Of a stretch of 64,000 nt of DNA, positions 16,959-48,743 are shown in pieces (position 1 is the first letter of the stretch; each line of letters opens with the position of its first letter). A program made the translations under genes and the position numbers. Location of the stretch: NCBI RefSeq assembly GCF_014117325.1, contig NZ_CP059732.1:2046001-2110000 (forward strand), read 5' to 3'. The notes beneath the pieces were generated by a model. It ran no database searches. It was given only the letters and a program-made list of their open reading frames with translations, and was not told the DNA's origin. Source of the stretch: Spirosoma foliorum (GTDB lineage Bacteria > Bacteroidota > Bacteroidia > Cytophagales > Spirosomataceae).

Positions 16959-18204
16959 TCAGATCGTAATGTGATTTCGGACTCGGTCTTCAAACAAGAT
17001 CGTCAATTGCTGAAGTGTAGCCGCCCAATTTTGTAAAGGCAGTTTCCAGTTTTCAATAATGCGTTGGGTCGTTAAGTAGAGTAGTTTGAGCAATGCCGTT
17101 TCTGATGAAAAGGCTCCTTTCGATTTAGTCACACAGCGTATCTGTCGATGAAATCCTTCCACGGTATTCGTCGTGTAGACTACCTTGCGGATGGCAGGCG
17201 GGTACTCAAAGAAACGCGTTAGCCGCAACCAGTTTCGTTTCCAACTCTCAACGACCAACGGATACTTTTGACCCCATTTGTCCGTAAAATCAGCCAGCTT
17301 TTGTTCGGCTCCGACCAGATTCACTGACTGGTAAATCGGCTTTAAGTCAGCCACTACTGCCTTTTGATCCTTGGAGACTACATACCTTAAGGAGGTACGC
17401 ACTTGGTGAACCAGATACAATTGTACATCAGTATGAGGAAACACCGTTTCAATGGCATCACCAAAGCCCGATAAGTTATCAATTGAGCAAATCAACAGAT
17501 CCTTTACGCCCCTATTTTGTAAATCAGTCAGAGTGCTTAACCAGAAACGAGCACTTTCTGCCTCGCCAATGTAGATCCCTAACAAATCCTTACGACCCTG
17601 TAACCGGGGCGCCGGAGCGCTCAATCGCTAATATGTTATAGGCGGCTTTACTGATGACTTTTCCGTCCTGGCGAACCTTGAAGTGAACGGCATCTAACCA
17701 GACGAAGGCATAAACTGGCTCTAACGGGCGAGAGCGCCATTGTTCAACCAGGGGAAGTATTTTATCCGTGATAGCTGATAATTGGCCTGAGCTGATTTCC
17801 AGGCCATATAAATCTTCCAGGTGCTCCTGAATGTCTTGGTAAGACATGCCCTTACTATAGAGCGAGAGGATGCGGTTGTCTAAGCCTTCGCCCAAGGTCG
17901 TTTGTCGTTTACCAATGAGCTTTGGCTCAAAGGTACCCTCCCGATCACGCGGCATCTCCACCTCAACCGGACCGTGTCCCGTCTTGACCCGCTTGACTTG
18001 GCTACCGTTGCGTCGGTTAGGGCGGTTTTGCTCCACGTGAGCCTGCACCTCCCCTGACAGAGCAGCATCGAGCAAATCTTTCAATAAGGGAGCCAACAGG
18101 CCATCTTTGCCCGTCAGTTCCTTCTCGCCCGCCATCATTTTAGCGATAGTTTCTTGCCGAAAGGCCTCATAATCGAAGCCATTTTTATCTCCTTTTATAT
18201 CCAT
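16959..18204 (-). pseudogene. IS256-family transposase interrupted by a 16-nt insert
   Basis: The N-terminal frame (18204 to 17590) and C-terminal frame (17624 to 16959) are one mutator-type transposase: AFVWLDAVHFKVRQDGK holds the first catalytic Asp, DLLICSIDNLSGFGDAIE the second, and TTNTVEGFHRQIR the C-terminal Glu region. The 16-nt element at 17604-17619 separates them. Deleting it gives 1230 nt (409 residues plus stop) and restores ILAIELQGRKDLLGIY. The length is normal for IS256. The insert is the only visible lesion. Confidence 0.88.
17604..17619 (+). repeat. 16-nt hairpin insert (CCGG-GGCG-CCGG-AGCG)
   Basis: Lies within the IS256 transposase on the strand opposite the gene. Removal of exactly these 16 nt rejoins the codons for A-I-E and L-Q-G-R-K. 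Confidence 0.9.
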
Positions 18205-18251
18205 TTGATTGTCAAGTTAGCAAATCATAACTTGACACACTTTATTGAACA

Positions 18252-18345
18252 CTCTCCGACCTGTTTAATTTGGGTTAGCGCTTTGAGATCCTCTCGGCTT
18301 TGATCGGTAACTTCCTGAGTTAGTTTTCCCGCTTGCTCCCGCTCG
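18252..18345 (-). pseudogene. Tn3-family transposase, 5' fragment
   Basis: Minus-strand reading gives EREQAGKLTQEVTDQSREDL and then KALTQIKQVGE up to the IS256 end, and the frame resumes as IPTGRPKQSVIEQLVDQYL on the other side of the IS. It is therefore the upstream piece of the same transposase. The true N-terminus is missing beyond 18345. Confidence 0.6.
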
Positions 18346-18700
18346 GAATAATATTAGGATAAATGAATCCGCTTCTACTTATGGCTATTTTTTCAAATTC
18401 CCCAAGTAGATTTATGAATACTTCATTGTCTCAAGTTGGAGCTTTTTTATGGGACTATGATTTTACAATTACCATCAGTCGCGTATAGCCCTTAGCGTCT
18501 CCCCTGTTAAAAGACCTTAATGGTTTCTCTAGTAATAGCAGGTGTTGTAACTTTTGCTTGACTAAATAACTTACTTACATCTATGAGCCAATTTGCTACC
18601 AGACCGTTCCGATTAACGATTGCATAAATAAACATGAAAAGTAATTGACTACTTATAGAATGACTAAGGAAACTATTTGATTTACTTAAACTCGGATTAA
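18346..18700. other. Intergenic DNA, nothing recognised
   Basis: AT-rich stretch between the Tn3 fragment and the thioredoxin-like gene. I see no long frame, hairpin with T tract or promoter match that I would defend. Confidence 0.5.
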
Positions 18701-19756
18701 ATGCGGTCGCCTTTCATTCTCTTTCTTGGTTGCTTGTTCTCATTTATAGCCTTGGCACAACCTCCACTTAGCATACCGGTAAAAGGTAGTCAGAGTGGCA
18801 TGGTCTATCTTTCTCATGGCACTGGCCAAGCCCTAAAAACAGATTCAGCACTTATTGCTAATCACCAGTTTACAGTTTCTCATTATCAACCATTTACTCT
18901 TTATACTATTTGGTTTAGAGATGTTGGGAAAGATTCCCAAAAGGCCATTCTTTACCCAGCAGCCCATATCCAGTTCGATGCCCAGTATGACCTGACGATT
19001 TCCTTAGCGACCGATTCCGTAAACTATTGGTATCTTCAGTTTAGACACAAGCATTTAGCGTTCATCAAGACTATTGGCCAACTTTCCTATGAAACGAGCC
19101 AACCTGCCACTCAGGATTCGCTCTACCGAGAAAGAGCCAGGGTATATGCCGCTTATACCAACAGCTTCGCAAAGGAATTGGTAAGCCATCGCACTAATCT
19201 GGCAGCGGTTACGGCCCTTTACGATCTGATTGTGGCAGATCGGCTGCAACCGCCCCTAATCATCAAAAACCTTTATACTCAATTAGCTGAGCCTGTCATA
19301 GACTCTTACTATGGTGCTAAGACAAGCATGTATTTGAACTTGGAGCAACAGGTAAGTCAGGGCTCAATCGCTCCTGTGTTTCAGCTACCGAAAAGCAATG
19401 GCCAAGTGATTAATCTCAAGCATTTACGAGGAAAGTATATTTTGCTGGATTTTTGGGCTTCCTGGTGTGGTCCATGTCGGGTCAAAAACAAAAAACTGGC
19501 GACTATAACAACAAAGCTTTCGGGAAAACTTCAACTCATAAGTGTGTCATTGGATACCAGCAAACAAAAATGGCTGGCAGCCTCTCAAAAAGATGGAATC
19601 AACTGGCTCAACCTATGCGATCTACAGGGCTTTAAAAGCCAAGTGGCCCAAGCTTACAACATCACTGGAGTACCCAGAACATTTCTGATTTCTCCTCAAG
19701 GGAAGATTTTGGGAGCCGATTTATCCTTTGCAGAAATAGCCAAACGAATCAACTAA
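18701..19756 (+). CDS. TlpA-like exported thiol-disulfide oxidoreductase
   Basis: 351 residues with a cleavable signal (FILFLGCLFSFIALAQ). The N-terminal ~200 residues are a beta/alpha domain typical of Bacteroidota TlpA-like proteins (DUF4369-like position, not certain). The C-terminal thioredoxin domain (~220-351) carries the redox motif WCGPC with Cys256 and Cys259 and the cis-Pro region GVPRTFLI. It likely reduces or isomerises disulfides in the periplasm, for example in cytochrome maturation. It is monocistronic. Confidence 0.85.
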   Translation: MRSPFILFLGCLFSFIALAQPPLSIPVKGSQSGMVYLSHGTGQALKTDSALIANHQFTVSHYQPFTLYTIWFRDVGKDSQKAILYPAAHIQFDAQYDLTISLATDSVNYWYLQFRHKHLAFIKTIGQLSYETSQPATQDSLYRERARVYAAYTNSFAKELVSHRTNLAAVTALYDLIVADRLQPPLIIKNLYTQLAEPVIDSYYGAKTSMYLNLEQQVSQGSIAPVFQLPKSNGQVINLKHLRGKYILLDFWASWCGPCRVKNKKLATITTKLSGKLQLISVSLDTSKQKWLAASQKDGINWLNLCDLQGFKSQVAQAYNITGVPRTFLISPQGKILGADLSFAEIAKRIN

Positions 19757-19997
19757 AGTTGGGCCAAATGGGTAAATAGCTGCGATTCACGATAACATCA
19801 GTTAAAGAAAGCTGGGTAGATCGGTTGTAAAGGTCAAATGACGAATTATGTGTAGTATTACGTTGAAATAGCTTGCCAAATCCGTGTTTTGCGAAATCAG
19901 CGTTTTTAGGAGACATGGTGCTGGTTGATAGGTGTTGATCCTAGTGAGTAAGCTTGGCTAAATACAACCCAGAACGCAGTTCGCGGGTCCTTTAAAT

Positions 19998-20336
19998 ATG
20001 AAAACTTCCATAGCCGTACTTACCATTTCTCTCAGTGCACTGGCTTGTCGCCAACCCTCCGCTCCAGCCGATTGCGACTGCCAATCAACAAGCTATTCGT
20101 TGTTGACTGAAAAAACGGGCGTTTACAACAAAGGGGGTGTAAGTACCATTAATGTCAAAACCGGCCAAGTTGATGGTTTCTATACATTGAGTTGCAATCC
20201 TGACTTTATCACCGGGAAAGCGGCCGACCGCGATACCATTCTGTTGAGTGGTCGAGCCCGCTCGAATTGCTACAAAGGGGAATCCCTAATTGCCCTGCCA
20301 GGTCTACTAGAGTTAATCACTGTACGTAAAAAGTGA
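19998..20336 (+). CDS. Small lipoprotein
   Basis: 112 residues; the signal ends in LSALAC (Cys17), followed by RQPSAPADCDCQST. The mature domain has six Cys in total and beta-strand character. No family is recognised. The preceding 19757-19997 shows no feature. Confidence 0.6.
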   Translation: MKTSIAVLTISLSALACRQPSAPADCDCQSTSYSLLTEKTGVYNKGGVSTINVKTGQVDGFYTLSCNPDFITGKAADRDTILLSGRARSNCYKGESLIALPGLLELITVRKK

Positions 20337-20439
20337 GCGTATTTTGAGATTAATGCTATGACCAATAGATTGTTAACAGGCTTGGTACTTTTTCGTCCTT
20401 TACTGTCCACAGCAGCAAAGCGAAGGACCCGTATCGTAG

Positions 20440-21189
20440 TTAACGAAATGCAGTTGACCGCTTTTTGAGTAGACCACGGGTTAACAGGAAAAGGACAACG
20501 ATCCAAACGAGGGCTGAAAAGAGCGACCACCTGGCTTGAGGAGCTACTAAGCTGTAATAAAAGATCGGGGCACTCCCGTATAAACCAAATACTAGGGAAG
20601 CCGTTAGGAAGCTGTACGCCATCTTTGACCCCGTACTGCTGAGTCCTAAAGAGCTATATGCAATTGGCATACTTTTGGTTAGCAATACGATCAGTTGCCA
20701 GGCGATCCAGGGAGTGCCCAAAACGAAGCCAACCCAAGCTGGGATGCTCAAACCCGTTTCAAAATGGCCAACGTCTCCGCTAGCCGAAAAGGCTCGTAAA
20801 GGTATATAACTGTAGAGTTCGGCCAGATTAAACACGGCAAACCAGAAGCAGGCTTGGGTTAAAAAGGGTCTTGGTTGGGTAGCTGATTGATGTACTCCTG
20901 CTTGGGAAAGCAGATACAACAAGACATTCGTTGCCAAAGCGGCCCCGGCAATTAACGAGGCTTTCCAGGGGAAGGATCGAAAGATGGGTTCGTAGTTAAT
21001 AGCTTCTTCGGCGTGAAACAGAGTCCAATCGCCATAACTAATGTCGAGTGGTTGCGCTTTATAGCCTAATAACCAGCCAACCAGACTATGCGACCACTCA
21101 TGCGCTAAGACCATCAGATGGTGAGCGGCAACAACGGTGACGACAGTGATCATAAAAATTACCAGTCCTCTTCTCATAAATAAGGTCAA
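20440..21189 (-). CDS. Polytopic membrane protein, M50-like metalloprotease
   Basis: 249 residues with about six hydrophobic helices. Helix 1 contains LMVLAHEWSHSLVGWLLG, an HExxH zinc motif placed inside a membrane helix as in M50 site-2 proteases. A second motif, NLAELYSYIPLRAF followed by ASGDVGHF, could supply the third zinc ligand (Asp), as the NPDG motif does in M50. No PDZ domain. This supports an intramembrane or membrane-associated protease-like role; the substrate is unknown. Catalytic activity is inferred. Confidence 0.6.
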   Translation of the reverse strand: MTLFMRRGLVIFMITVVTVVAAHHLMVLAHEWSHSLVGWLLGYKAQPLDISYGDWTLFHAEEAINYEPIFRSFPWKASLIAGAALATNVLLYLLSQAGVHQSATQPRPFLTQACFWFAVFNLAELYSYIPLRAFSASGDVGHFETGLSIPAWVGFVLGTPWIAWQLIVLLTKSMPIAYSSLGLSSTGSKMAYSFLTASLVFGLYGSAPIFYYSLVAPQARWSLFSALVWIVVLFLLTRGLLKKRSTAFR

Positions 21190-21418
21190 GATAGTTGTGT
21201 TCCACTACCATTATAAGTGGAAGCTCAAACGTGGTGATAACTAACGGTTGATGACGAGATGACAGGTTTCAGCAAATCTATCCTATCTTGGTCAAGTTAG
21301 CGACCAACGACAGTGCTCTACCAAACGCCCATTTTTGCAGCGGATGCATGCAGGTTCTATACGCTCCAATGAGCGCATCTCATGAGCATACCTTTGTTGC
21401 TTGATAAGATGTATAAGT

Positions 21419-22516
21419 TCATTGAAATCGTTTAGTAGCCTCCTTAAGGGCTGCCTCTGTTGGGGGTAACAACCAATTCAAGCCTCGCTCAATCCGAGCT
21501 TGAACACGCTCCACGTACGGATGGAAGCGTTGATACTAGCTGGCAAAGGCGGCTGAATAATTCCCCTTACATGTTGCAAGTTCGGTAGCTAAACGAGCGG
21601 CTCCCTGCATAGCCAAACTGGTACCCATACCGGTGGGAAAGCTAGTCGTATGAGCTGCGTCGCCCACCAGGGCCACTCGACCTTTTGTCCAGCTGGGCAT
21701 ATGAATTTGCACGACTTCATCAAAGTATAACTGATTCGAAGCCAGCATAGCCGCTAGAATTTGGGGAATCTTCCACAAGCCGTTTTCGAAATGGTCGATT
21801 AGAATTTGCTTGTGCTGGTCCTGCTTGCGATAGTCATAGGGTAGCCTCGACGAGCGAAAAAGAAGGCCCGCCTGAACGGCGTTTTTAAACGGATATAATA
21901 GGGCTGTTTTGCCCACCTCCTGGTAGAGGGTAGCCGAATTAGGCTGATTCGGTTTTATAAAAGGGGCTTCAGCCAGGGCAAAGTAAGCCCCAAAAAAGCG
22001 AGCAAATTGCGCTTCAGGCCCGAATACGAGTTTTCGCACGGTGGAATGGGTGCCATCCGCGCCAACTACAAAGGCAAACCGTTGTGCTTCGCCCGTTTTA
22101 AACCTGACGGCCACACTATCGTCATCCTGGCTCAAGGTCTCAATTCGATTCTCAAACAAAAATTCGACCTCATTGGGTGGGATAGCCTGGTATAGTATGT
22201 CCACCAAATCGTCTCGGTGAATCTCCAGGTCACCCGCATACTCGGCTTGGGCATTGATGGAAAATTGCACAATGGGTTCATTATGGGCATTCACGATCTC
22301 ATCGGTATGCACCAATTGATTGGCCTTAAGTTGGTCCAGAATACCCATGTCGTTGGCCACGGTCAGGGCATCGCCCCGAACATCAATGGGCGAGCCGCCC
22401 CGCCTGAGGCCGTTGGCGACCTCAATCAGGGTTACCTGGTAGCCATATCGGTTGAGCCAATAGGCTAGCGTTAACCCTGCGATACTGGCCCCCGCTATTA
22501 AAACGGACTTCTTCAT
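21419..22516 (-). pseudogene. FAD-dependent monooxygenase truncated by an amber codon
   Basis: The 326-codon frame from 22516 has the N-terminal FAD site (VLIAGASIAGLTLAYWLNRYG), the DG motif (FAVVGADGTHSTVRK) and the second FAD motif (GRVALVGDAAHTTSFPTG), as in TetX/PHBH-type monooxygenases. It ends at TAG (21536-21538), but the same frame continues for 38 more codons to a TGA at 21419 reading YQRFHPYVERVQARIERGLN, which is the expected C-terminal helix. So one Tyr-like codon became TAG. The gene is divergent from an AraC regulator at 22608. The short form still holds the FAD fold and might fold. Confidence 0.75.
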
Positions 22517-22607
22517 GACAATTATCGGTTGCTGTAGATCACAAAAATAGGCGCATCTTTAGGGGTAAAATAACCCAATCAGGACTAAAAATAGTCGTAA
22601 AACGAAG

Positions 22608-23561
22608 ATGCATCGAGACGATCCGCACCAGTTCCTACAGTTTATTGATAAAATAGGCTACGATATTGGGCCAAACACGACCGAGAACCTGACCATGTAT
22701 GGACAAAAAAGTTTCGACTTTTTGCCCGGCTTAGCCATGTTCACCGCTTCGTATAGGGTGAACAAAACGTTCACCCGCCAAACGACGGCACCCAAATTCA
22801 TTGATCGGAGTATTTGCTTCTTTTTCAAAAATGTGGTCTCGGCTGCTGACGATTGGCCTGGGGATAGTACCCGGAAATCATCGGATGACAAACCCTTTAT
22901 CCGCGTGTTTCCATCGACGTACACCTACACCAGTTTCTTTAAAGCAGATTCCCGGGTGGTGATCGTGGCGGTCCTGGTCCAGGCGGATTATCTGAAAAGC
23001 TTCCTGGGTGGCGATGCGGACCAGTTTCAATTTCTGTTTGAGAACCCCACAGATTTTCTCCTTGAGGAAGTGATGACGGACGAAATGATTAGCACCCTGA
23101 ATGCGATTGTGCGGAAGCAGCCACCCGGTTCACTACCGGCTTATTATTACCGGCTGAAGGCGATGGAACTACTCTTTTATTTGTTTCAGCGGTTAAGCCG
23201 GCGAGAAAAAACAGCCCATCAGACCTTCAGTGAGCAGGACATCGTGTCCATTTATCAGGTACGCGATCAATTGGTTTCCTGCCTGGCTAAACCCAGTTCG
23301 ATCAGCGACTTGAAGCGAGTGGCGGGCATGAACGAACTAAAAATGCGCACCTTGTTTAAGCAAGTTTTCGGCCGGGGTATTTATGACTACTTTCAACATG
23401 CACGCATGCAGGAAGCGGCCCGGCTGCTGCGCGAAGCGAATCAATCGGTATCCGATGTGGGCGCTCAACTGGGTTATGAAAACCTGAGTCATTTCAGCCG
23501 AATTTTTGAAAAGTATATCGGCAAGAAGCCCAAACAGTATAGCAAGGCGTTGGTTGGATAA
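22608..23561 (+). CDS. AraC-family transcriptional regulator
   Basis: 317 residues. The C-terminal ~100 carry the two AraC helix-turn-helix units (ISDLKRVAGMNELKMRTLFK, and later VSDVGAQLGYENLSHFSRIF, then KYIGKKPKQY). The N-terminus is a ligand-binding region without recognisable motif. It is divergently transcribed from the monooxygenase at 22516 with 91 nt between, which suggests it controls that gene. The gap contains two small palindromes (GGGT/ACCC and GACT/AGTC). Confidence 0.85.
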   Translation: MHRDDPHQFLQFIDKIGYDIGPNTTENLTMYGQKSFDFLPGLAMFTASYRVNKTFTRQTTAPKFIDRSICFFFKNVVSAADDWPGDSTRKSSDDKPFIRVFPSTYTYTSFFKADSRVVIVAVLVQADYLKSFLGGDADQFQFLFENPTDFLLEEVMTDEMISTLNAIVRKQPPGSLPAYYYRLKAMELLFYLFQRLSRREKTAHQTFSEQDIVSIYQVRDQLVSCLAKPSSISDLKRVAGMNELKMRTLFKQVFGRGIYDYFQHARMQEAARLLREANQSVSDVGAQLGYENLSHFSRIFEKYIGKKPKQYSKALVG

Positions 23562-23685
23562 ACGCTAAAGCTGTCCTGTTTTTTGGGCAATTTTTGAAAT
23601 TAGCTACGGAAACCCTGCCGAGAATAAATAATAGTTCATTGTTTATTAACCAGCCCCTCTTCCTGCTTTTAGTCAGGCGGCAAAA

Positions 23686-24555: not shown

Positions 24556-24663
24556 AAAGATATAGACTTAATCTGCGATTTGAGGTATTAATACGGGGAT
24601 ATGGTCCATTTTTCAAGTTTGATTCCCTTTTTCTTTGTATAAATTTTTATAAAGAAGAAAGAG

Positions 24664-26783: not shown

Positions 26784-26815
26784 AATTCAACCTACTTTTG
26801 AAAAAAAATAGATTT

Positions 26816-30509: not shown

Positions 30510-31520
30510 TCACATTTGCAGTGCATAAAGCTCCTTCTGAGCGAATTCAGCCGGGCTTAGATAACCCAAAGTTTTACGGGGCCGTTAGTTAAGTTGATCT
30601 TGTATTCAAGATACTTCCGTGGGACGAACAATATTAATGGGACAGGCTTTAGGAATGTACTGACTAATTAGCCCATTCATGTTCTCGTTGAGCCCACGTT
30701 CCCAACTATGATAGGGGTGGGCAAAAAATGTGGCTGCTTGAAGTTCGCTAGCTATCAACTCATGACGCGCCAACTCCAAGCCGCATGGGCGGCCCCGCAT
30801 TATCAAAGGTGACGGTCTTGACGGGCAAACCGCTTCGGCGCAAGGCTTTTATAGCGGCCTTAGCCAGGGCAAGGGCATTTTTCGAGTTTAATTTGACAAT
30901 CAGTACGTACGTGGTAAGCCGCTCGACTAGAGTTAACAGCGCACCCTGATGGCCCTTGCCAATGACTGTATCTGCTTCCCAGTGACCTACTTCCGTGTTT
31001 GAATTTACAATCGGCGGGCGGAGGTCAATACTGACCCGGTTAGGAATAAGTTGCCGCTTGGCGGGCGTACCTCGTTTCTTGTAATGCTTACGATGGCGGA
31101 TACCAAGTACTGAGTAAGTGTCTCATGGCCAGCAGGTTGTTGATTAGGTTTCCCTTGGTGTTGCTAGAGGTAGCGGTAGATAGTCTCGTGGTGCAGCACC
31201 TTTTGTATAGCCATCCGTTGTAGCTCACCGCAAATCTGTTCCGGTGAAAGACGGTCTATGAGTCGGGTTAGTACGGTAGTCAGCAATGAGCATTGGAGTT
31301 TATAGGGTAAGCGTTTTTTTGCAGTGGCTGATTGTTGCTGGGCCTGTTGAGCCTCGTAGGTTTGTTTGGAATGCTGCTGGTTATGTTTGGCCAACTCGCG
31401 CCAGATCGTTGATTGACTGACCCCGACCTGTTGGGCGATGTCTTGCTGGTTTTTATGTTGGTGATTAAGGGTCTGAATGAGGTATCTTTGCTGGAGAGTC
31501 AGCCGTTTGTAGTTTACCAT
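30510..31520 (-). pseudogene. IS30-family transposase, decayed
   Basis: Starts at the ATG at 31520 (MVNYKRLTLQQRYLIQTL, helix-turn-helix QQDIAQQVGVSQSTIWREL) and can be followed to a TGA at 30510 (RPRKTLGYLSPAEFAQKEL). The DDE blocks are VGHWEADTVIGKGHQGALLT, KTVTFDNG and HPYHSWERGLNENMNGLI. Lesions are TAG at 31164-31166, a one-base frame change near 31110, a 16-nt insert at 30782-30797, and TGA and TAA between 30590 and 30620. Upstream of the start a second 16-nt insert interrupts the leader. Confidence 0.82.
30782..30797 (-). repeat. 16-nt hairpin insert (CGGG-GCCG-CCCA-TGCG)
   Basis: Inside the IS30 DDE region. Removal rejoins T-F-D-N-G-L-E-L. One arm position is mismatched (CGGG with CCCA). 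Confidence 0.9.
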
Positions 31521-31533
31521 AGTTTTGGATGGG

Positions 31534-31549
31534 ACCGGCCGCCGGAGCG
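31534..31549 (+). repeat. 16-nt hairpin insert (ACCG-GCCG-CCGG-AGCG)
   Basis: Lies 13 nt upstream of the IS30 start codon and so would disturb the leader or ribosome access. The stem can also be read as CCGG/CCGG with a 3-nt loop. It is the only copy outside a coding frame. Confidence 0.7.
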
Positions 31550-31725
31550 GTGAGAATCCCAAAGCTACGGGAGAATCTATTGAGCGGCTGACTTTTGTTG
31601 GTCCAGTAGGCTTGGGCCAGCTACCGAAAGATACAAAAAGGGTGAAAAAGTGATATGCATTCCAAATGTGAATTCAAGAGGTATTTGAAAACCTTCAACT
31701 TAACACCAAGCGAGTCGGGTATTAA

Positions 31726-40328: not shown

Positions 40329-40354
40329 GTGTGAATAAGACCTAATAACTCAAT

Positions 40355-40746: not shown

Positions 40747-41607
40747 TCAAGGATACATTGATTGAACAGTAGCAATGTCTGTCGCTGACAGAGACTGACG
40801 CTGCCCTATAAACGTTGATCCGTCTTTCTTCGTAATAGTGGGCAAACCGTTTCTTGAAAAGTCAAAGGAGCCGTATAGCATAATCGAGCCAAAATCCAAT
40901 CCTCCGGCATAGTTAAACCCGTCCATACCTCTCTGCTCATAAGTTTGGAAGTCCGTTTCGTATCCATTAGTAATGTTTCCTGCATTGATTGTAATATAGT
41001 TGTCACGATCGGTACGAGTATGTTCATGCCATAGACCAACAGTGTGCCCAATTTCGTGAATCGTATTGCCAGTAGAACAAATGTTCGCTAAGTTTATGTA
41101 TTGCAGACCTCCAGCATAACCAATGTTGGAGGAGCAACCTGGCCCAAGGCGGAACAGCACATAACCGCGTTGAGTCGTACGGAGCATGAACCGGATAGAT
41201 GTATTAGCCTCCCAGTGTGCAATGGCATTATATACCCGAGCCTTATTTGGGAGTTCGGGATCGATGGTATAATAAACTGTTTTATTGGGCCAGCGGGAGT
41301 ATAACTTCTTGCGTCCAGTTCCTTTTATTGCTTGGGTGTGAAAGTCCATTGAATCATTGATACTATCTGGACTTACTAATATATCACTTTGAAAAACTGC
41401 CTGTCCATTAATAAGGGAATACGTAATTTTCTCACCGTTCAACATGCCTGTCTTGAGTGGCCCCTGCTGGAGTGGGAATGCTTCTTCTGGCCGTGTTACC
41501 TTTACAACTGGCGTTATTTCCAATATTTTTTCCGTTGTATTTTGGGTGCAACTAAGTAAACTACAGGTAAAGGCAAACAGTAGTGGGGAGATCGCAATAG
41601 TCTTCAT
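40747..41607 (-). CDS. Astacin-like (M12A) metalloprotease lipoprotein
   Basis: 286 residues. Lipoprotein signal ending LLSC at about residue 20, a ~90-residue propeptide-like region, then an astacin domain: HEIGHTVGLWHEHTRTDRDN gives the zinc ligands His184, His188 and His194 with Glu185 catalytic. The Met-turn reads SIMLYGSFDFS, supplying the fifth ligand Tyr; most astacins have SVMHY here. It should be a surface endopeptidase. Stand-alone gene. Confidence 0.87.
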   Translation of the reverse strand: MKTIAISPLLFAFTCSLLSCTQNTTEKILEITPVVKVTRPEEAFPLQQGPLKTGMLNGEKITYSLINGQAVFQSDILVSPDSINDSMDFHTQAIKGTGRKKLYSRWPNKTVYYTIDPELPNKARVYNAIAHWEANTSIRFMLRTTQRGYVLFRLGPGCSSNIGYAGGLQYINLANICSTGNTIHEIGHTVGLWHEHTRTDRDNYITINAGNITNGYETDFQTYEQRGMDGFNYAGGLDFGSIMLYGSFDFSRNGLPTITKKDGSTFIGQRQSLSATDIATVQSMYP

Positions 41608-42080: not shown

Positions 42081-42102
42081 GTGAGCCAGTTTTGACTGGA
42101 AT

Positions 42103-42324
42103 TTAAGCCGCCTGCCGATATTCAACCGGCGTCATAAACTTCATGGCCTGATAAGGACGATAAGGACGTTCGGTATTATACTTGACTAGCCACTCATTGA
42201 CCACACACCGTACTTGTCGGATACACGTGAAAACGTAATCATTTAAAACCTCCCGCCGGAAAGTCCCGCACGGGCGGCCCCGCATTGAAGCGCTCAATAT
42301 ATGCGTTTTGCGTGGGCTTACCCG
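42103..42324 (-). pseudogene. IS3 element I orfB, C-terminal piece
   Basis: Reads GKPTQNAYIERFNGTFRREV after removing the 16-nt insert at 42267-42282, then LNDYVFTCIRQVRCVVNEWL and NTERPYRPYQAMKFMTPVEY before the stop. These are the rve-domain Glu region and C-terminus of an IS3 transposase. Its upstream partner is at 44227-44505. Confidence 0.85.
42267..42282 (-). repeat. 16-nt hairpin insert (CGGG-GCCG-CCCG-TGCG)
   Basis: In IS3-I orfB. Removal rejoins E-R-F-N-G-T-F-R-R-E. Identical in sequence to the copy at 48050. Confidence 0.92.
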
Positions 42325-42593
42325 ACGGTCGGCCGCTCATATCTTTGTTTTGAGTTTATTCTGTCAGAAAAAGTGCAATTTTTGAGTAAGACCTGACACG
42401 GGTTGTCAGTACCTCGGGTCGGCCGCTGAGACACCTGCGGTGATCTTGAACAGGCTGGTTGTGCTGGCTCCCTTGTCGCTTTTCCCAAAGCTCCGACAGT
42501 ACCCATAGACGCGGTTTAAAACCGTAATCTGCAATCGATGTGCCAGAGTCAGGAAAGTAGTCAGGTACATGTTTTACTTTTATCTCTTTTGTT
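42325..42593 (+). ncRNA. Left end of IS110-b, candidate bridge RNA region
   Basis: 269 nt of non-coding DNA between the IS3 junction and the IS110-b start codon. It can fold into several hairpins (for example CTGACA/TTGTCAG around 42396). In the IS110 family the bridge RNA that pairs with donor and target is encoded at this position; that is established for the family, and its presence here is inferred from position and foldability only. Confidence 0.4.
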
Positions 42594-42926
42594 ATGACTT
42601 CTTTTCTGCGCTATTGTGTTGGACTTGACCGCACCGGCGGCCCGGATCAGCAAAGACTCGCTTCAAGTCTGCCTTTCAGTGATCGACTCAACGGGTCGAG
42701 TGACGGTGAAAGCTACTACCAAAGTCGCTAACAAGCCCGCAGGCTTCTCGGCATTGATGAACTGGGTGGCTCGCCACCGTAAGCTAGAGTTGCCCCTAAC
42801 TTACCTGATGGAATCCACCGGCGTCTACCATGAAGCAGTGGCCTGGTACCTGCATCAACAAGATCAACCCATTAGTATCCTGCTGCCTAATAAGGCTAAA
42901 TACTACCTGAAGAGCCTGGGCTATAA
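42594..42926 (+). pseudogene. IS110-b transposase, N-terminal half
   Basis: Starts MTSFLRYCVGLD, and after the 16-nt insert at 42630-42645 continues ISKDSLQVCLSVIDSTGRVT to KAKYYLKSLGY. This is the DEDD/RuvC-like domain of IS110 transposases. At 42926 the frame stops at half of a 16-mer occupied by IS110-a. The second half lies at 45339-44562. Together, without inserts, they make 1095 nt, exactly 365 codons, through G-Y-K-S-K-N-D-K-I-D. Confidence 0.88.
42630..42645 (-). repeat. 16-nt hairpin insert (CCGG-GCCG-CCGG-TGCG)
   Basis: In the IS110-b transposase. Removal rejoins C-V-G-L-D and I-S-K-D-S, the conserved first Asp motif of IS110 transposases. Confidence 0.92.
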
Positions 42927-42934
42927 CCGGGCCG
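42927..42934 (+). repeat. Left half of a 16-mer at the IS110-a right end
   Basis: CCGGGCCG equals positions 1-8 of the commonest 16-mer. IS110-a follows directly. The matching right half, also in IS110-b sequence, is at 45340-45348 after an inversion. Confidence 0.8.
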
Positions 42935-43341
42935 ATTTCTATGGTTCAAACAAGGGTTGGCGTATGATTTTTGTTATATTTTTTACTCCGCTTGACCACC
43001 GCATAGACCCGATGGATGAGTTTATTTCTTAGTGCGTTGATAACCAACATCTTATTCTTACCTTCTTTGACTTTTCGCTGGTAATACTCCTGTAATTCAC
43101 CGGGCACTTGAAGAGCCGACATGGCTGCCATATGAAGCAAGGTTTTTAGCGATTTTCGAGCGTGATGATTCACCCGGGTCTTACCCCGTACACTACTGCC
43201 CGAGGAGTGCTCGAAGGGAGCTACGCCCGCATGGCAAGCCAGCTTTTTGGGGTCATCAATAGCGTTGAACTCATCACTGGCCAGGATTAATTCAGTGGCC
43301 ACGACTTGACCAACACCAGGAATAGACGTAACCAACTCAAA

Positions 43342-43357
43342 CCGGGCCGCCGGAGCG
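43342..43357 (+). repeat. 16-nt hairpin insert (CCGG-GCCG-CCGG-AGCG)
   Basis: In the IS110-a transposase. Removal rejoins T-L-K-A-L and F-E-L-V-T-S-I-P-G. Confidence 0.92.
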
Positions 43358-43833
43358 GAGCGCTTTCAAGGTAGGATCGTCAGTAATGAGCTGTTTAATT
43401 GCCTTTTCGCCCCCTTTTAAATCACTTAGCAGTGCTTTCAGTGAGCTACTGCAATGCTGACCTAGTTGGGTAGTCAGGACTTTGTCACCAAATCGTTTTT
43501 GCTCGGCCAAAGGCACTTTCAACTGGCTAATCATACCTTGCAGACGCTGACGAAGTCGAGTAAATTCAGTCAGCTTTTTCATGACGGCTCGAGCCGGTTT
43601 CCAAAGCCGAGTCCGGTCTTGAAAGCGATAAGCGTACTCAGCAATCCGCTGAGCATCAACACTATCTGACTTGCCTCGTTGCAGCCCGCCAGCTTGTTTA
43701 ATATGGAGGGAAGCTTCTAGCCAGATCGGTAACTGAGCCTGAAACAATACGTCCAAGGCGTGTGCATTGTAAAGACCCGTGTGCTCCATGCAAACGACGC
43801 AATTTGAGCGATCAAAGTCAGGGAGTGCCTGGA

Positions 43834-43849
43834 TCGGACCGCCGAAGCG
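43834..43849 (+). repeat. 16-nt hairpin insert (TCGG-ACCG-CCGA-AGCG)
   Basis: In the IS110-a transposase. Removal rejoins V-I-K-Q and Q-A-L-P-D-F. The arms TCGG/CCGA differ from most copies but remain complementary. Confidence 0.9.
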
Positions 43850-43985
43850 GTTGTTTGATCACTGCTCGGATAGCCGTTGGTGAGTTTTCAGATTGGGTCT
43901 GCCAGACGATACCTTTATTAGCGTAAACAGCCCAATCCAGCGTGTTCTTCGAAACATCAATCCCAATGAAGTGGCGAATGTCCAT

Positions 43986-44217
43986 TAGAGTACTTAATTT
44001 TAGGGTTAGACAATCAGACTACTTACTCATCACTCGCTACCTTGCTAATGGGACTGCTATCCCGAATTTCTATTCGAGGTTAAGTAAGAAAGACCGAGCG
44101 GGACCTGAATCGGCCCATAGGGCGCAAACCTGGCCGGAGACGTTAGGGAAGCCCGCTCGGTTGTCTGTCTGGCAAGCTACCCAAATCTTGGTTTCTTACC
44201 GGCCCTCAAACCTAAAG
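43986..44217 (-). ncRNA. Left end of IS110-a, candidate bridge RNA
   Basis: The upstream non-coding region folds strongly: CCGGCC (44203-44208) with GGCCGG (44217-44222), and a 10-bp perfect stem ACCGAGCGGG (44093-44102) with CCCGCTCGGT (44152-44161) that encloses a ~50-nt loop. IS110 bridge RNAs are transcribed from this place. The GGGCCGG segment could pair with the 16-mer target core. RNA existence is inferred. Confidence 0.45.
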
Positions 44218-44229
44218 GCCGGTGCGGTC
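44083..44229 (+). repeat. 147-bp inverted repeat, copy 1 (IS110-a left end)
   Basis: Identical in inverted orientation to 45337-45483. The pair brackets IS3-I orfB and the IS110-b C-terminal half, which are both in the wrong orientation for their partners, so the intervening 1.1 kb has been inverted by recombination between the copies. Confidence 0.88.
44218..44226 (+). repeat. Right half of a 16-mer at the IS110-a left end
   Basis: GCCGGTGCG equals positions 8-16 of the 16-mer and is followed by IS3-I orfB (codons for S-L-D-F-T after the restored W). It was therefore a 16-mer in IS3 orfB occupied by IS110-a. Confidence 0.8.
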
Positions 44230-44505
44230 GTTGGATTTTACGTCCGACAGCTTAACGGGTGGACGTAAGTTTCGGACGTTGAATGTGGTCGACGACTACA
44301 ATCGGAAAGCTTTGGGTATCGAGGTGGATTACTCGTGACCTTCACGCCGAGTCATCCGATTATTGGATCAACTAGTGGAACGATACGGTAAACCGGAGCG
44401 GATTCGGAGTGATAATGGGTGGTACGCCACTGCGACCGGAATTTATTAGTCAGGCTTTGCAAGATTGGTGCAAAGATCAGACGATTGAGTTATGTTGGAT
44501 CGAAC
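44227..44505 (+). pseudogene. IS3 element I orfB, middle piece (inverted)
   Basis: Reads SLDFTSDSLTGGRKFRTLNV and VVDDYNRKALGIEVDYS, then an in-frame TGA, PSRRVIRLLDQLVERYGKPE and, after removing the 16-nt insert at 44419-44434, RIRSDNGPEFISQALQDWC and WIE. It contains the first and second Asp of the rve catalytic triad. It continues at 42324. Confidence 0.87.
44419..44434 (+). repeat. 16-nt hairpin insert (GTGG-TACG-CCAC-TGCG)
   Basis: In IS3-I orfB. Removal rejoins R-S-D-N-G-P-E-F, the second catalytic Asp motif. The arms and loop are the most divergent of all copies, yet the arms remain complementary and the TGCG tail is kept. Confidence 0.88.
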
Positions 44506-44561
44506 GGCTGGTACTGTCGTGAAAGTCAAGTTTTGGGGTAGGATTTTTTTATATCTTTGGA

Positions 44562-45339
44562 CTACAAGTGGGACAACTCGGATTCGGCCACTTGATCCTG
44601 TGTAGTCCCGCCGGTCGGGACTATTTTTTTGTCCTTGCTGGCTCGGTTCGCTAAATACAAAGAGTCGTATTCGACCCCGTGACGCCACAAGGCGTAGGCC
44701 ATCAAAAGCAATCGTTTCTGAACAGCCACGTAGGCTTTCATCTTGATATGAGTTCGTTCATAGACCCGCTCATAAAGGGCTTTGCAAGTGGGTTCATTGA
44801 ACCGAATCGCATTAAAAGCAGGCATATGCAGGATACGACGTAGACGGCTATTGCCTTTCTTGGAGATACGCGTTTTACCCGAGTGGTTACCCGATTGGTT
44901 TTCCACGACGTCGTAGCCGGCATAACTAACCAAGTGCCGTTGGTTGGTAAAGCCCTCGAAGCCATTGGTTTCGGCCACCAGTACTGCTACTAACAACAGA
45001 GCAAGACCTTTAATGGCTACCAGTCGTTCCATACGGGGCTTTAGTATTGGATCTTGCTCAATAAGCTCTTTGATTGCCGTTTCCAAAGCAACTAGCTGTG
45101 CCTCGTAGATGGACACCAACTTGGTTAACTGTTTGTCAATGAAGCTGCTGTCAAAAGTACTATGTTCCAGGGCATGCTGCTGATTGGTGGACTGGGTTCG
45201 CAGTTCTTGCAGGCGTTGGTGTTGGCGAGTCAACAAGCGCAACGCATACAGGTTTTTAGAGAGCGGTTTCCAGATCGGCACTTGCTGTTCAAGTCCCATG
45301 CGGGACAAGCCCTGGGCGTCGATTTTATCGTTCTTGGAC
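44562..45339 (-). pseudogene. IS110-b transposase, C-terminal half
   Basis: Begins SKNDKIDAQGLSRMGLEQQV and carries the Transposase_20 domain (LVAIKGLALLLVAVLVAET, LVSYAGYDVVENQSGNHSGK, TRISKKGNSRLRRILHM). It is preceded at 45340 by half a 16-mer and the truncated second copy of the IS110-a left end. Its N-terminal half is at 42594-42926. Confidence 0.87.
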
Positions 45340-45483
45340 CGCACCGGCCTTTAGGTTTGAGGGCCGGTAAGAAACCAAGATTTGGGTAGCTTGCCAGACA
45401 GACAACCGAGCGGGCTTCCCTAACGTCTCCGGCCAGGTTTGCGCCCTATGGGCCGATTCAGGTCCCGCTCGGTCTTTCTTACT
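45337..45483 (-). repeat. 147-bp inverted repeat, copy 2 (truncated IS110-a left end)
   Basis: The second copy of the IS110-a left end. Its IS110 body has been lost at the boundary with IS701 (45482). Confidence 0.88.
45340..45348 (-). repeat. Right half of a 16-mer in IS110-b
   Basis: Minus strand GCCGGTGCG, followed by the IS110-b codons for S-K-N-D. It completes the half at 42927-42934. Confidence 0.8.
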
Positions 45484-46535
45484 AGGACTTACGCAAAGGC
45501 AACTGAAGGATTCGCCAACTCTTGACGAAGGTAAGCATCTAATAAGCCTTGTTTGAGTTGGTAAACCGTTTTCTTAGTCTGATAAGCCAACTGTTTAAAA
45601 CGTAACCAAGTCAGAGCCGCTAAGCCAATGTGATTGCGTTGACTACGAGCTAATCGACATTGACAACATTCCAGACCCGTGATCTGCTTATCTTCTCGAT
45701 GAAACTGCTCAATTGTCCAACGAATACCACTTTTTTCTTCAGCGGCACTCGTCTCATTTTGAGCTAAATCGTTGGTGACGATATAGTCCGTCCGGTGGGT
45801 AGACACCAGTACGCGGAACAGTTTAAGATAGGTGTTTTGAGGCATCTTGTGTACTTTAACCAGCTTACCCTGCTGCACCTGTTGAGCTGACCAGCTCAGA
45901 TAGCTGACAGGTTGATACGGTTCTTTGCCACCTGAATCATCGACCTTACGGTTGCTCTTGATAGGACAGTAAAACAGTTTTTCATTGGTAATGAGCCACT
46001 TGAAGAGGTCGGTCACAGCATACCAACTGTCCATTAAGACGATTCGATAACTGATCTGGCGGGGTGCTAGTTGGTTAAGCATGTCCAACACATGATCCAA
46101 CTTGCTTTTTCCATCCTCATCGGGATTAAAAATACGGTAGTCAATGAGCCAGAACTGATTAATTTTAGGATTGAAGTAGACACAATTAACCACACCGATG
46201 CCTTTGATGATTCCATGAGCATTTCCACTGTATTGCCGACGAACCAGTTCAATTTTATGACTATGTTCTTTATTGAGCACGGTATCATCAAAGAGGATAT
46301 AGCCATCGGTATCCAGTTGAATTTGGTGGCGGACATGTTGCCAGACCTGGCGAGGTGCCACTCGGCTAGCTTTGAGAAAGTACTGCACATTGTCATGGGT
46401 GATCCCTTCCAGGTGATCAGCCAAGTAGGTAGCCGTATAGTTGATCTGGCTACTCAGTAGAAACTGTCCGTAAAGTTGTGCGGTGACCTTCAAGCTATTT
46501 TTTATTTCAATTTACCACTTTTGCGTAAGTCCTAA
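45482..46535 (-). mobile_element. IS701-like element, intact
   Basis: Terminal repeats YTAGGACTTACGCAAA at both ends enclose one intact transposase gene. CTTA is present at both outer flanks (45478-45481 and 46536-46539), but the left CTTA belongs to the IS110-a left end and the right one to IS3 orfA, so the element probably mediated a deletion. It contains no 16-nt insert. Confidence 0.78.
45489..46493 (-). CDS. IS701-type DDE transposase
   Basis: 334 residues in one open frame. DGYILFDDTVLNKEHSHKIE holds the first Asp, YRIVLMDSWYAVTDLFKWL the second, and WTIEQFHREDKQITGLECCQ the Glu, in the order of IS701-type DDE_5 transposases. The length is slightly short for the group but the gene looks functional. 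Confidence 0.85.
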   Translation of the reverse strand: MKVTAQLYGQFLLSSQINYTATYLADHLEGITHDNVQYFLKASRVAPRQVWQHVRHQIQLDTDGYILFDDTVLNKEHSHKIELVRRQYSGNAHGIIKGIGVVNCVYFNPKINQFWLIDYRIFNPDEDGKSKLDHVLDMLNQLAPRQISYRIVLMDSWYAVTDLFKWLITNEKLFYCPIKSNRKVDDSGGKEPYQPVSYLSWSAQQVQQGKLVKVHKMPQNTYLKLFRVLVSTHRTDYIVTNDLAQNETSAAEEKSGIRWTIEQFHREDKQITGLECCQCRLARSQRNHIGLAALTWLRFKQLAYQTKKTVYQLKQGLLDAYLRQELANPSVAFA

Positions 46536-46772
46536 CTTAGCTCGGCGTACATCCGCTCGGGCGGCCCCGTTTTTGAGCCGCCGGTTTTCGTCCTCCAATT
46601 CTTTCAGCCGTTTGACTTCCGAAACCTGCATACCGCCATATTTAGCTCTCCAATTGTAGAAGGTAGCCTCGCTACTGCCATGTTCACGGGTGATCTGTGC
46701 GACGGTTTGTCCGCTATCCTGTTGCTTAAGAATCGCGACAATCTGCGATTCGGTGAATCGTGTTACTTTCAT
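46536..46772 (-). pseudogene. IS3 element I orfA, interrupted
   Basis: MKVTRFTESQIVAILKQQDS then TVAQITREHGSSEATFYNWR is the orfA helix-turn-helix, followed by a coiled region (RLKELEDENRRLKK). The 16-nt insert at 46554-46569 breaks the frame; removal restores R-R-L-K-K-M-Y-A-E-L. The gene is then cut by IS701 at 46535. Confidence 0.87.
46554..46569 (-). repeat. 16-nt hairpin insert (CGGG-GCCG-CCCG-AGCG)
   Basis: In IS3-I orfA. Removal rejoins L-K-K-M-Y-A-E. Confidence 0.92.
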
Positions 46773-46856
46773 TTCCCTTTTCGATTACAGTGAAAGTTAA
46801 GTTTTTTGCCCTACTTTTCACTGGCTCACTTTCAAGGGTTCAGGACAGGTATCGCC

Positions 46857-47258
46857 ATGCCTTTATTTATGGCCAACATGGCCTATTGGGGTAGCTTTTT
46901 AGCTGAATCTTTCGCCAACTTTTCGGCAGCTTCAGTGGCCAAAAGGCCCGATTGGTACTTGTCTATGCGCGCTTTTTACTTGGATCAGTGGCGTGGAGGT
47001 AGCTCTTTTGTATTAGCTACGGCTGCTTTCAGGTTAGCCTTACAATTAGTTGGCTGGTTGAAGGCAACGGCTTGTCGTCTTTATGTGGTATTCAATCTAG
47101 TCGGCTCTTTACTGAGTGTGCTACCCTCGTTTTCGGTTGGCCCATTAGCAATTGTGACGTACCTAGTATCCATCCCAGCTTTCCCCTTCATCATACCCTA
47201 TCTGATGGCGCTTAATTTGTTGAACTTAGCTAATCACAATTTTAGCACGATTCAATAA
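46857..47258 (+). CDS. Hypothetical membrane protein, probably 5'-truncated
   Basis: About 133 residues from the ATG at 46857 with several hydrophobic stretches (VLATAAFRLALQLVGWL, LVGSLLSVLPSF, AIVTYLVSIPAFPFIIPYLM). The frame runs upstream into the IS3-I end at 46828, so the original start was probably lost when IS3-I inserted. No family recognised. The following 47259-47532 shows nothing. Confidence 0.4.
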   Translation: MPLFMANMAYWGSFLAESFANFSAASVAKRPDWYLSMRAFYLDQWRGGSSFVLATAAFRLALQLVGWLKATACRLYVVFNLVGSLLSVLPSFSVGPLAIVTYLVSIPAFPFIIPYLMALNLLNLANHNFSTIQ

Positions 47259-47582
47259 ACCGGGTCAAGGAACGAACTAGTGTTTCATAAGGGGGCCATT
47301 GTGAGTATATATTTAAGAGATGACAGTGCATTCCTGATTGTTAATCCGCTTACCTGTTCACAAATTAAGCAGGCCAAATAGTGAAACCAGAAAAGCTAAT
47401 TGAGGGCGGGTGATGGTAGTCTTTAGCGCAGGCTAACTAAATTTAAAGATAGCCAGTATGATAATGACTAGAAAAACCACTAGTTGAACCAGGTGAAACC
47501 TAGTCAGTCTCGTTACGGCGGGTTGGACCGGTTGATATGGTCCTAAATATCCGGACACGAAACTTTTTTAACTTCGTGTACC

Positions 47583-47880
47583 ATGAACCAATCCCAACAA
47601 CCAAAACGAAAGTATACCGCCGAGTTTAACGGGGCCACCCGCGCGGGCTGATGTATTGCGGCTAGTTGCCAATGGTGAACCCATTATGGCCGTAGCCCGT
47701 AAGATGGGTATTAGCGATAGCCTGATTCACGCTTGGCGGAAGACCAATGACAAAGGGGAAAAGAAAACTGATCAAAGTCTTCAACAAGAAGTCGATAGCC
47801 TACGTAAGCAACTGCGGCAAAGCGAGATGGAGCGCGAGATTCTAAAAAAAGCTGTTGCCATTTTCAGCCGACAAACCTGA
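47583..47880 (+). pseudogene. IS3 element II orfA with one 16-nt insert
   Basis: MNQSQQPKRKYTAEF then, after removing 47630-47645, KADVLRLVANGEPIMAVARK and a helix-turn-helix and leucine-zipper tail (SLRKQLRQSEMEREIL). Without the insert it is 282 nt, exactly 94 codons. Seven A residues followed by G at 47844-47851 form the classical -1 frameshift site that would fuse orfA to orfB. Confidence 0.87.
47630..47645 (+). repeat. 16-nt hairpin insert (CGGG-GCCA-CCCG-CGCG)
   Basis: In IS3-II orfA. Removal rejoins T-A-E-F-K-A-D-V-L. Confidence 0.92.
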
Positions 47881-48049
47881 CGCTAACGTACCAGTTTATT
47901 CAGTTTGAAGAAACCAATTTTCCAGTACGACTACTCTGTAAAGTACTGAATGTCAGTAAGACTGCATATTACTCATATCGTAATGGAACAACGTTCACTC
48001 CGTCAGATAGCGATCTAGCCATGACCACAGCAATCGACAAGATTTTCTG

Positions 48050-48065
48050 CGGGGCCGCCCGTGCG
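48050..48065 (+). repeat. 16-nt hairpin insert (CGGG-GCCG-CCCG-TGCG)
   Basis: In IS3-II orfB. Removal rejoins K-I-F-W-E-N-S-R. Confidence 0.92.
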
Positions 48066-48195
48066 GGAAAACTCCCGATGCTATGGCAGCCGTCGCGTGC
48101 TGGAAGCTCTGAAAGAACAGGGCGTAAAGGTTGGTCGACATCGGGTACGTCGTTTGATGCAAGAGCAGGACTGGCGGGCCATTCAGCCCCGTAGT

Positions 48196-48211
48196 CGCTT
48201 CGGCGATCCGA
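48196..48211 (-). repeat. 16-nt hairpin insert (TCGG-ATCG-CCGA-AGCG)
   Basis: In IS3-II orfB. Removal rejoins Q-P-R-S-F-V-P-K-T. Nearly identical to the copy at 43834. Confidence 0.88.
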
Positions 48212-48373
48212 TTCGTACCCAAAACGACTAACTCCAGGCATGGTTTAATTGCTTGCCCCAACCGCTTACTTGAGTTTGGTAAACCTACTGCCCCTAATCA
48301 GGCTTGGGTCGGCGATATTACGTATTTGCCTTTAGTTGATGGACACTGGGCTTATTTAGCCAGTTGGATGGAG

Positions 48374-48389
48374 CGCACGGGCGCCCCCG
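48374..48389 (-). repeat. 16-nt hairpin insert (CGGG-GGCG-CCCG-TGCG)
   Basis: In IS3-II orfB. Removal rejoins A-S-W-M-E-L-F-S-R-R. Confidence 0.92.
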
Positions 48390-48519
48390 TTATTTTCTCG
48401 TCGGATCGTCGGTTGGTGGGTCGACAAGCACATGAAAGAAAGCCTAGTTGTGCAGGCCTTTGACCAGGCCCTCCAGCAACGTCAACCTAAGCCGGGTTTG
48501 ATCGTCCACTCGGACCGAG

Positions 48520-48535
48520 CCGGGCGGCCGGTGCC
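48520..48535 (+). repeat. 16-nt hairpin insert (CCGG-GCGG-CCGG-TGCC)
   Basis: In IS3-II orfB. Removal rejoins H-S-D-R-G-G-Q-Y-F, the second catalytic Asp motif. The loop and the last tail base differ from consensus. Confidence 0.9.
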
Positions 48536-48627
48536 GTGGTCAGTATTTCGGTCATCATTTCCGAAAGCGGCTCGATAAATGGCACTGTAGGCAGAGCATG
48601 GCGGAAACCGATAATCCCTACCAAAAC

Positions 48628-48643
48628 CGCACCGGCGGACCGG
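48628..48643 (-). repeat. 16-nt hairpin insert (CCGG-TCCG-CCGG-TGCG)
   Basis: In IS3-II orfB between P-Y-Q-N and the A-H-A-E-S-F-W block. One base of the host appears lost at the junction, or the insert is 15 nt here. Confidence 0.82.
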
Positions 48644-48727
48644 CTCATGCCGAGTCTTTTGGGGCCGCTTAAAAGCTGAGTTGCTGGAGGATGGCTGTTT
48701 TATCAGCTTAGAAGATGCCCGCAATGA

Positions 48728-48743
48728 CAGGGCCGCCTGTGCG
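48728..48743 (+). repeat. 16-nt hairpin insert (CAGG-GCCG-CCTG-TGCG)
   Basis: In IS3-II orfB. Removal rejoins D-A-R-N-E-L-F-N-Y-I. The arms CAGG/CCTG are a paired variant. Confidence 0.9.

Follow-up and report, generated by a model that had tools for sequence, protein, structure and literature searches.

The GC42 clusters of yeast mitochondria are short, GC-rich, palindromic mobile DNAs under structural constraint, for which the mechanism is given as unknown and putative co-conversion tracts have been noted at insertion; they are 42 nt long, mostly intergenic and marked by AG target-site nucleotides (PMC4478555). Repetitive extragenic palindromes (REPs) and bacterial interspersed mosaic elements (BIMEs) are dispersed hairpins of 20-40 bp with a GTAG or CGTC tag that form dimers and can sit inside long palindromes and in genes (PMC3733652). 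The palindromic elements of Rickettsia are described as in-frame inserts within functional proteins. The byps of mitochondria are GC-rich hairpin inserts in coding sequence, and homing introns are gained repeatedly at one homologous site. A 64,000-nt stretch of the Spirosoma foliorum genome (the window, genome 2046001-2110000) carries a family of hairpin elements which add 16 nt to their targets, including transposase genes of insertion sequences (IS). This family is genuine but is not restricted to transposase genes, and we tentatively favour the reading that a filled site serves as the source from which the element is copied to the corresponding empty site of a related repeat within one cell.

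The element unit comprises 17 nt, namely a 16-mer and the base that follows it (+1), which pairs with the loop and is altered to match. The predicted fold, which is supported by covariation, consists of two interleaved 4-bp hairpins within the 17 nt. In the 153 copies with an empty site, positions 1-4 pair with 9-12 (helix 1) and positions 6-8 with 15-17 (helix 2, position 17 being the base 3' of the 16-mer), the pairs being formed at 1-12 in 140, at 2-11 in 151, at 6-17 in 136, at 7-16 in 152 and at 8-15 in 150. Among 60 distinct 17-mers, the covariation score was 0.446 as compared to 0.096 for shuffled sequences (0/500), with no slid version coming close. This agrees with the original prediction, made from the window alone, that the arms vary in a paired fashion; the loop in addition covaries with the tail and with the following base, beyond the covariation of the arms. 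The second hairpin by itself (6-9 with 14-17) scored 0.285 against 0.079 for shuffles, and it was also the one preferred upon simple folding of four examples, with energies barely better than those of shuffles. Base 9 is common to both 4-bp hairpins, which could thus form a small pseudoknot or a switch. The fixed part of the element is a GC[GC] located 3' of the hairpin, corresponding to CGCW or close on the opposite strand; it is presupposed by the search motif, which required inner GG/CC pairs, CG, GG or CA at positions 7-8, GC[GC] at positions 14-16 and at least three arm pairs. Since this motif fixes the inner arm pairs and largely 8-15, it is the outer arm pairs, pair 6-17 and the phase of 7-16 that provide free evidence for the fold. 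Loop base 5 tracks arm base 1 (mostly A-T, C-G and T-A, but G-T) and, GTGG types apart, is mostly identical to base 12. An open reading frame (ORF) could not be accommodated in an element of this length. An Rfam search of the window at the gathering score returned 0 matches, and a known RNA family was therefore rejected as its identity.

Precise empty sites at an identity of at least 80% were found for 153 of 366 distinct copies, and all 153 alignments correspond to a net gain of 16 nt with no target duplication. Base +1 differs between filled and empty sites in 47/153 cases, more often than any other flank position counted (6-34/153); 37 of these 47 changes create the loop pair and 6 destroy it. 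As the changed base fits the loop, a single base appears to be replaced by 17 nt in the event. Target sites of the GTGGTCCGCCACCGCG variant have mostly T or C at +1 and G once filled; one search pattern included this G, and the informative copies are those found without it. Of 360 distinct sites, 293 have a purine immediately before the element (position -1). When pairing between the target and variable bases of the element was sought, target base +1 was associated with e13, the loop and the arms and no simple rule emerged, recurrent sites inflating the associations. Nine pairwise comparisons of IS3 copies, with gaps at the ends and the truncation of two copies by 467 nt set aside, showed that inner indels are 14-16-nt elements, except for three of 1 nt and one of 4 nt. 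Together with the gapless empty sites, this indicates that the elements are insertions, mostly base-precise and made without target duplication.

The same variant is often found at the same site. Between filled homologous sites with 65-90% flank identity, the 16-mer is identical in 62 of 101 pairs (out of 121 same-site pairs over all identity bands), as opposed to 3.9% of random pairs. In an IS1182 family, four copies in the tree have the same variant at one site, and three of the four belong to genome G024; forcing these into a single clade was rejected (p-AU 1e-50 for the four copies and 8e-5 for the three alone) and the tree needs four changes. In this IS family, the same variant was therefore gained independently at the same site, which argues against vertical descent as the sole cause of shared sites. 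The nearby flanks follow each copy's own relatives, so that no long tract was copied. Sites homologous to a filled one were filled in 30/31 comparisons within a genome and 6/18 between genomes at an identity of at least 97%, in 6/15 and 32/144 at 90-97%, and in 22/64 and 110/682 at 80-90%, respectively. A tree based on projected IS3 residues is affected by alignment overrun at the inserts and is taken as a hint only.

In the window, the core motif with at most one mismatch is matched 21 times against 5.05 expected from shuffles. The motif is present at all sixteen places at which complete copies of one plan had been predicted, nine in the plus and seven in the minus orientation, both orientations having been foreseen; the single plan needs amending for the copies at 31534, a 15-nt variant, and 48520, which has an alternative loop and tail. 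The copies and the genes or elements that hold them are as follows.

17604..17619, plus strand: 16-nt element CCGGGGCGCCGGAGCG, base +1 C, in an IS256-type transposase gene
30782..30797, minus strand: element by an IS30-like piece, the family being judged from the HTH_38 piece at 31164-31562
31535..31549, plus strand: 15-nt variant with a 3-nt loop, in an HTH_38-bearing transposase piece
42267..42282, minus strand: element in an IS110-type region, empty site found
42630..42645, minus strand: element at the start of an IS110-type ORF (42616-43032), empty site found
43342..43357, plus strand: element in a two-copy IS110-type element, empty site found
43834..43849, plus strand: element in the two-copy IS110-type element, empty site found
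44419..44434, plus strand: element in an IS110-type region, motif match
46554..46569, minus strand: element lying 61 nt upstream of the ORF of a DDE_5 transposase, weak empty site
47630..47645, plus strand: element in the IS3 orfA region, empty in L113, L085 and others
48050..48065, plus strand: element in IS3 orfB, empty site from the IS3 comparison
48196..48211, minus strand: element in IS3 orfB, the site being occupied by the same variant in L088
48374..48389, minus strand: element at the Asp codon of the D-L-F-S motif, base +1 changed from A to C
48520..48535, plus strand: element with arms CCGG..CCGG and loop/tail GCGG/TGCC, homologues having CAGG..CCTG at the same site
48628..48643, minus strand: element in IS3 orfB, with a 15-nt gap in L085 and a 1-nt gap nearby in the window copy
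48728..48743, plus strand: element in IS3 orfB, empty site from the IS3 comparison
16959..18204, minus strand: IS256-type transposase gene (PF00872), two ORFs split at the 17604 element
42926..44235, minus strand: IS110-type element with two inserts, of which a 99.7% identical second copy (genome 2163189-2164500) also has two inserts
47531..48834, plus strand: IS3-type element with seven inserts, rve and HTH_21 being found in its relative L085

For 12 of the 16 copies, the flanks, joined by script, align gaplessly to an empty site at another locus; no such site was found among other loci for 30782, 31534, 44419 and 48628, and that of 46554 rests on one weak match (70.6%). The 46554 element lies about 20 nt beyond a 1.05-kb repeated unit whose end is at 46534. 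The 17604 site is empty in L175 and L176 and carries the same insert at the same site in L002/L003. The number of inserts per IS3 copy ranges from none in L092 to three in the L142 copy, seven in the window and nine in L095. A 14-nt shortened element occurs at the same site near the C-terminus in L086 and L087, two IS3 homologues from different genomes. An astacin-type metallopeptidase gene (window 40747-41607) adjoins the IS cluster.

A pattern search of the genome and its relatives, as the original prediction had proposed, showed the family to extend through the genus and the family Spirosomataceae. The single-contig 8.85-Mb genome holds 189 matches to GGNNCGCCNNWGCG against 19 for the reversed pattern. 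In 1.57 Mb of this genome, a stretch partly picked near matches, the motif is matched 129 times against 22 for the reversed control or, when both loop-tail pairs are included, 91 times against 3. The contig ends repeat at 99.97% (genome 16434-19447/8825574-8828587 and 30000-33924/8839139-8843063; offsets 8809140 and 8809139), pointing to about 44 kb of circular overlap that was left untrimmed and in which element copies are counted twice. The exact CGGGGCCGCCCGTGCG occurs in 20 of 39 genomes, every one a Spirosoma (25 of the 39 belong to the genus). Using the pattern with part of the 3' flank, at least one match was obtained in 11/11 genomes of the genus, 12/35 of the rest of the family and 23/245 of other families of the order, the latter being mostly single matches at about control level. 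Genera among the matches listed are Spirosoma, Larkinella, Emticicia, Runella, Lacihabitans, Rudanella, Dyadobacter and Arcicella, along with scattered genomes of other groups, presumably mostly GC-rich, where chance matches are expected. In a metagenome-assembled Cytophagia genome (L321, L337, L350, L354, L368, L374 and L377), the 16-mer and a second palindromic unit (GCGGTT..) recur at a recurring spacing as a composite repeat.

Residence in transposase genes only, as first proposed, fits the window and is refuted by intergenic copies elsewhere, including those in repeated or inverted DNA: 11 of the first 30 consecutive genome matches fall outside every stop-to-stop ORF of at least 90 codons, with several others at an ORF edge. 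The enrichment in IS genes was borne out, on few copies. An even 800-kb sample contains 18 copies with both loop-tail pairs: IS-like DNA (8.1 kb) has 4, other DNA (172 kb) 9 and ORFs of at least 200 codons (620 kb) 5, the density being about tenfold higher in IS-like DNA than in other DNA outside long ORFs; the IS library used consisted of families found in this analysis, making the IS content a lower bound. Among the five long-ORF copies, L141 and L172 lie close to the 5' edge of the stop-to-stop frame, L158 lies close to a 3' end, and L159 and L166, which have unusual loops, may be chance matches. Tandem arrays with a period of 16 were found at L099, L337 and L392, and long intergenic inverted repeats with symmetric copies in both arms at L031, L314, L319 and L332. 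The flanks of 25 of 440 copies recur inverted within 250 nt; the partner arm is filled in 15 of these, 10 of which have the same 16-mer and correspond to five pairs viewed from either arm. Some intergenic copies lie in sequences whose relatives elsewhere in the genome are empty.

Like the GC clusters, the Spirosoma element is a mobile GC-rich palindrome with a conserved stem, and the view of it as a structure-conserved mobile mini-element comparable to these clusters is strengthened by the precise empty sites, the covariation and the family-wide spread. In contrast to GC42, it is 17 nt long, bacterial and IS-enriched, with each variant tied to a site, and neither AG target-site nucleotides nor a duplication were seen in the 153 empty-site alignments. 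With REPs and BIMEs accompanied by REP-associated tyrosine transposases (RAYTs), it shares a tagged, dispersed hairpin, dimers and residence in long palindromes and genes. It is, however, shorter (16-nt net insertion, 17-nt covarying unit), lacks the GTAG or CGTC tag, having NCGCW on the complementary strand instead, and has two interleaved helices; in 20 fetched Y1 loci (8-10 kb), copies do not flank the Y1 transposase gene, the nearest well-formed ones being about 0.8 kb off inside an IS (L133) or at least 2 kb off. The absence of duplication also sets it apart from miniature inverted-repeat transposable elements, which have terminal inverted repeats with target duplication. Rickettsia palindromic elements are likewise inserted within genes but are described as in-frame and in expressed proteins, whereas 16 nt breaks the frame. 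The resemblance to byps is that of GC-rich hairpin inserts in coding sequence, the mixed orientation and the +1 base change of the Spirosoma element arguing against bypass. Repeated gain at one homologous site, as with homing introns, was found in one IS family, yet the element has no coding capacity and the copied tract is at most 17 nt plus a few bases. As it departs from them in size, tag, target duplication and RAYT adjacency, it is not simply a GC cluster or a REP; judging from sequence, it would belong among the small palindromic mobile repeats, probably working like GC clusters and resembling REPs. Among the papers listed in a literature search of mostly openly accessible journals, none was recognised as a description of such inserts in Spirosoma or in transposase genes.

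An insert of 16 nt shifts the frame, and ORFs switch at the insert. Insert-bearing IS nevertheless multiply. Two IS256 copies in the S. foliorum genome are identical over 1343 bp, their two inserts included; the window copy, at 81% identity to this pair, has one insert in common, at the same site and letter for letter. The IS110-type element has two copies with inserts in this genome, an IS1182-type element in G042 has three fetched copies of 4 that are identical over about 1.7 kb and insert-bearing (for the fourth, only the span was considered), and a 1398-bp element with three inserts occurs twice in G001. Between the window IS256 and L003, changes by codon position in the stretches between inserts, each counted in its own frame, are 3, 1 and 19, 9, 3 and 56, and 27, 12 and 112, giving 187/242 third-position changes. 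For IS3, third positions account for 13/17 changes on the window branch (seven inserts), 18/26 on its sister L085, 51/63 in L095 (eight more inserts than L094) and 40/51 in L094; the L088 branch, with three inserts, looks relaxed (11/26; 7 synonymous and 13 non-synonymous codons). Substitutions on most insert-bearing IS branches examined are therefore under purifying selection, and either the inserts arrived late and fast or insert-bearing genes remain functional or are complemented in trans. One or more inserts within the OrfB frame were seen in 12 of 35 well-covered IS3 copies. A recurrent IS3 site splits the Asp codon of the D-L-F-S motif, a residue which we take to be catalytic, and the exact GTGG variant is found there in five genomes. 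Near-identical insert-free IS families are found at genome 641023-642564 (4 copies), 1646395-1647583 (4) and 1969873-1970937 (6) in the stretches compared.

The gain of the same site without a common clade, the within-genome concordance, the symmetry of some inverted repeats, the residence largely in repeated DNA and the 17-nt tract together point to homing-like copying. The filled site of a related repeat in the same cell would act as donor for the matching empty site, and the tract copied, of 17 nt plus at most a few flanking bases, might be transferred through repair, by template switching or by a trans-acting nuclease. IS genes and intergenic repeats would be targets as members of repeated families in which a filled relative can donate, whereas a single-copy host gene would lack any donor and insertions landing there would be eliminated. 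New variant-site pairs would originate in the occasional jump to a fresh site, in either orientation and mostly just 3' of a purine. Several observations weigh against this reading. Two well-formed copies lie inside ORFs of at least 200 codons (L172 near the 5' edge and L158 near the 3' end), the partner arm is empty in 10 of the 25 inverted cases, and five IS families are insert-free within the 1.57 Mb compared, three of them having 4, 4 and 6 members and the other two a pair each. The same-genome excess is gone at 65-80% identity (6/43 against 100/609 in other genomes); the filled-site comparisons, moreover, are counted both ways and not independent, with loci fetched via the element over-represented, and the concordance at 97% identity or more may reflect IS copies that moved along with their inserts. 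Copied flank beyond the +1 base was looked for in the IS1182 case and none was seen. The exact GTGG 17-mer occurs only once in G009, yet the variant recurs across genomes; a second exact genomic copy can thus be dismissed as the template in G009, and the donor would have to be past or imported. Finally, no enzyme or donor mechanism was found, Y1 being the only trans factor searched for.

Among other explanations, a REP-like single-strand insertion, in which an HUH (Y1) or similar enzyme would act in trans on the folded element and carry it to R^G/R^Y targets of weak specificity without donor homology, appears rather unlikely. It would account for the hairpin with its fold-back tag, the lack of target duplication, the two orientations, the inverted pairs and the purine at -1, and Y1_Tnp matches are present in 20 of 24 genomes searched. 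However, no well-formed copy lies within 0.7 kb of a Y1 domain match in the 20 fetched loci, which rejects or weakens a RAYT/REPtron origin by adjacency; G003 has no Y1 match yet 12 element-pattern matches, and a weak target preference leaves the same variant at the same site unexplained. That the inserts are tolerated because the interrupted transposase is still made, by translational bypass or other removal as with byps, and accumulate in working IS genes is unlikely, although the purifying selection on both sides of inserts (IS256, L095 and the window IS3) and the identical multiple copies with frame-breaking inserts (two of IS256, three fetched of 4 of IS1182 and two of the G001 element) are what it would predict. 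Bypass fits poorly with insertion in both orientations, with up to nine inserts per gene and with the relaxed L088 branch; host genes hold few or no copies though a general bypass would protect them, and at the D-L-F-S site GAY would become GAG through the +1 change, the Asp being lost even upon clean removal.

The Asp-codon site, the weakest point for bypass, is conversely the strongest for silencing. Writing of the element into IS genes by a guided, host-encoded anti-transposon system is also suggested by the IS enrichment, the recurrent insertion at a conserved motif in five genomes and the many inserts per few substitutions, and is judged improbable: intergenic copies are common, G009 has no second GTGG 17-mer to serve as template, and IS copies continue to multiply with inserts in them, alongside multi-copy families that have none. 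The inactivation system envisaged in the original prediction is neither established nor eliminated. Neutral insertion with purging, in which the element lands everywhere and survives only where harmless, agrees with its scarcity in long ORFs and its presence in intergenic DNA, but is very improbable in its plain form, which is weakened by comparisons of density and rate. The density is about tenfold higher in IS-like DNA than in other DNA outside long ORFs (on four copies), and the nine inserts of the L095 gene show no sign of neutral substitution on the branch, implying insertion so frequent that, were it general, intergenic DNA would be expected to be full of copies. Indels can arise at GC-rich hairpins in sequencing or assembly; the chance that the family is such an artefact is negligible, as numerous different assemblies contain the same inserts and their arms covary.

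The means by which very small palindromic repeats, GC clusters and REPs among them, move has long been an open question. Spirosoma offers hundreds of copies, 153 with a clean empty site, a covarying structure, repeated same-site gains and named strains in culture collections, which makes the mechanism directly testable. It is possible, though we would put it forward only guardedly, that a protein-free 17-nt two-hairpin element homes site-specifically into Spirosomataceae transposons and other repeats, each variant to its own site, rewriting the adjoining base to complete its fold; it would then be the smallest homing element described and a repeat-specific genome writer. Should homing prove right, the element would be a selfish unit of 17 nt that is protein-free; should it be guided writing, a new kind of transposon control would be at hand.

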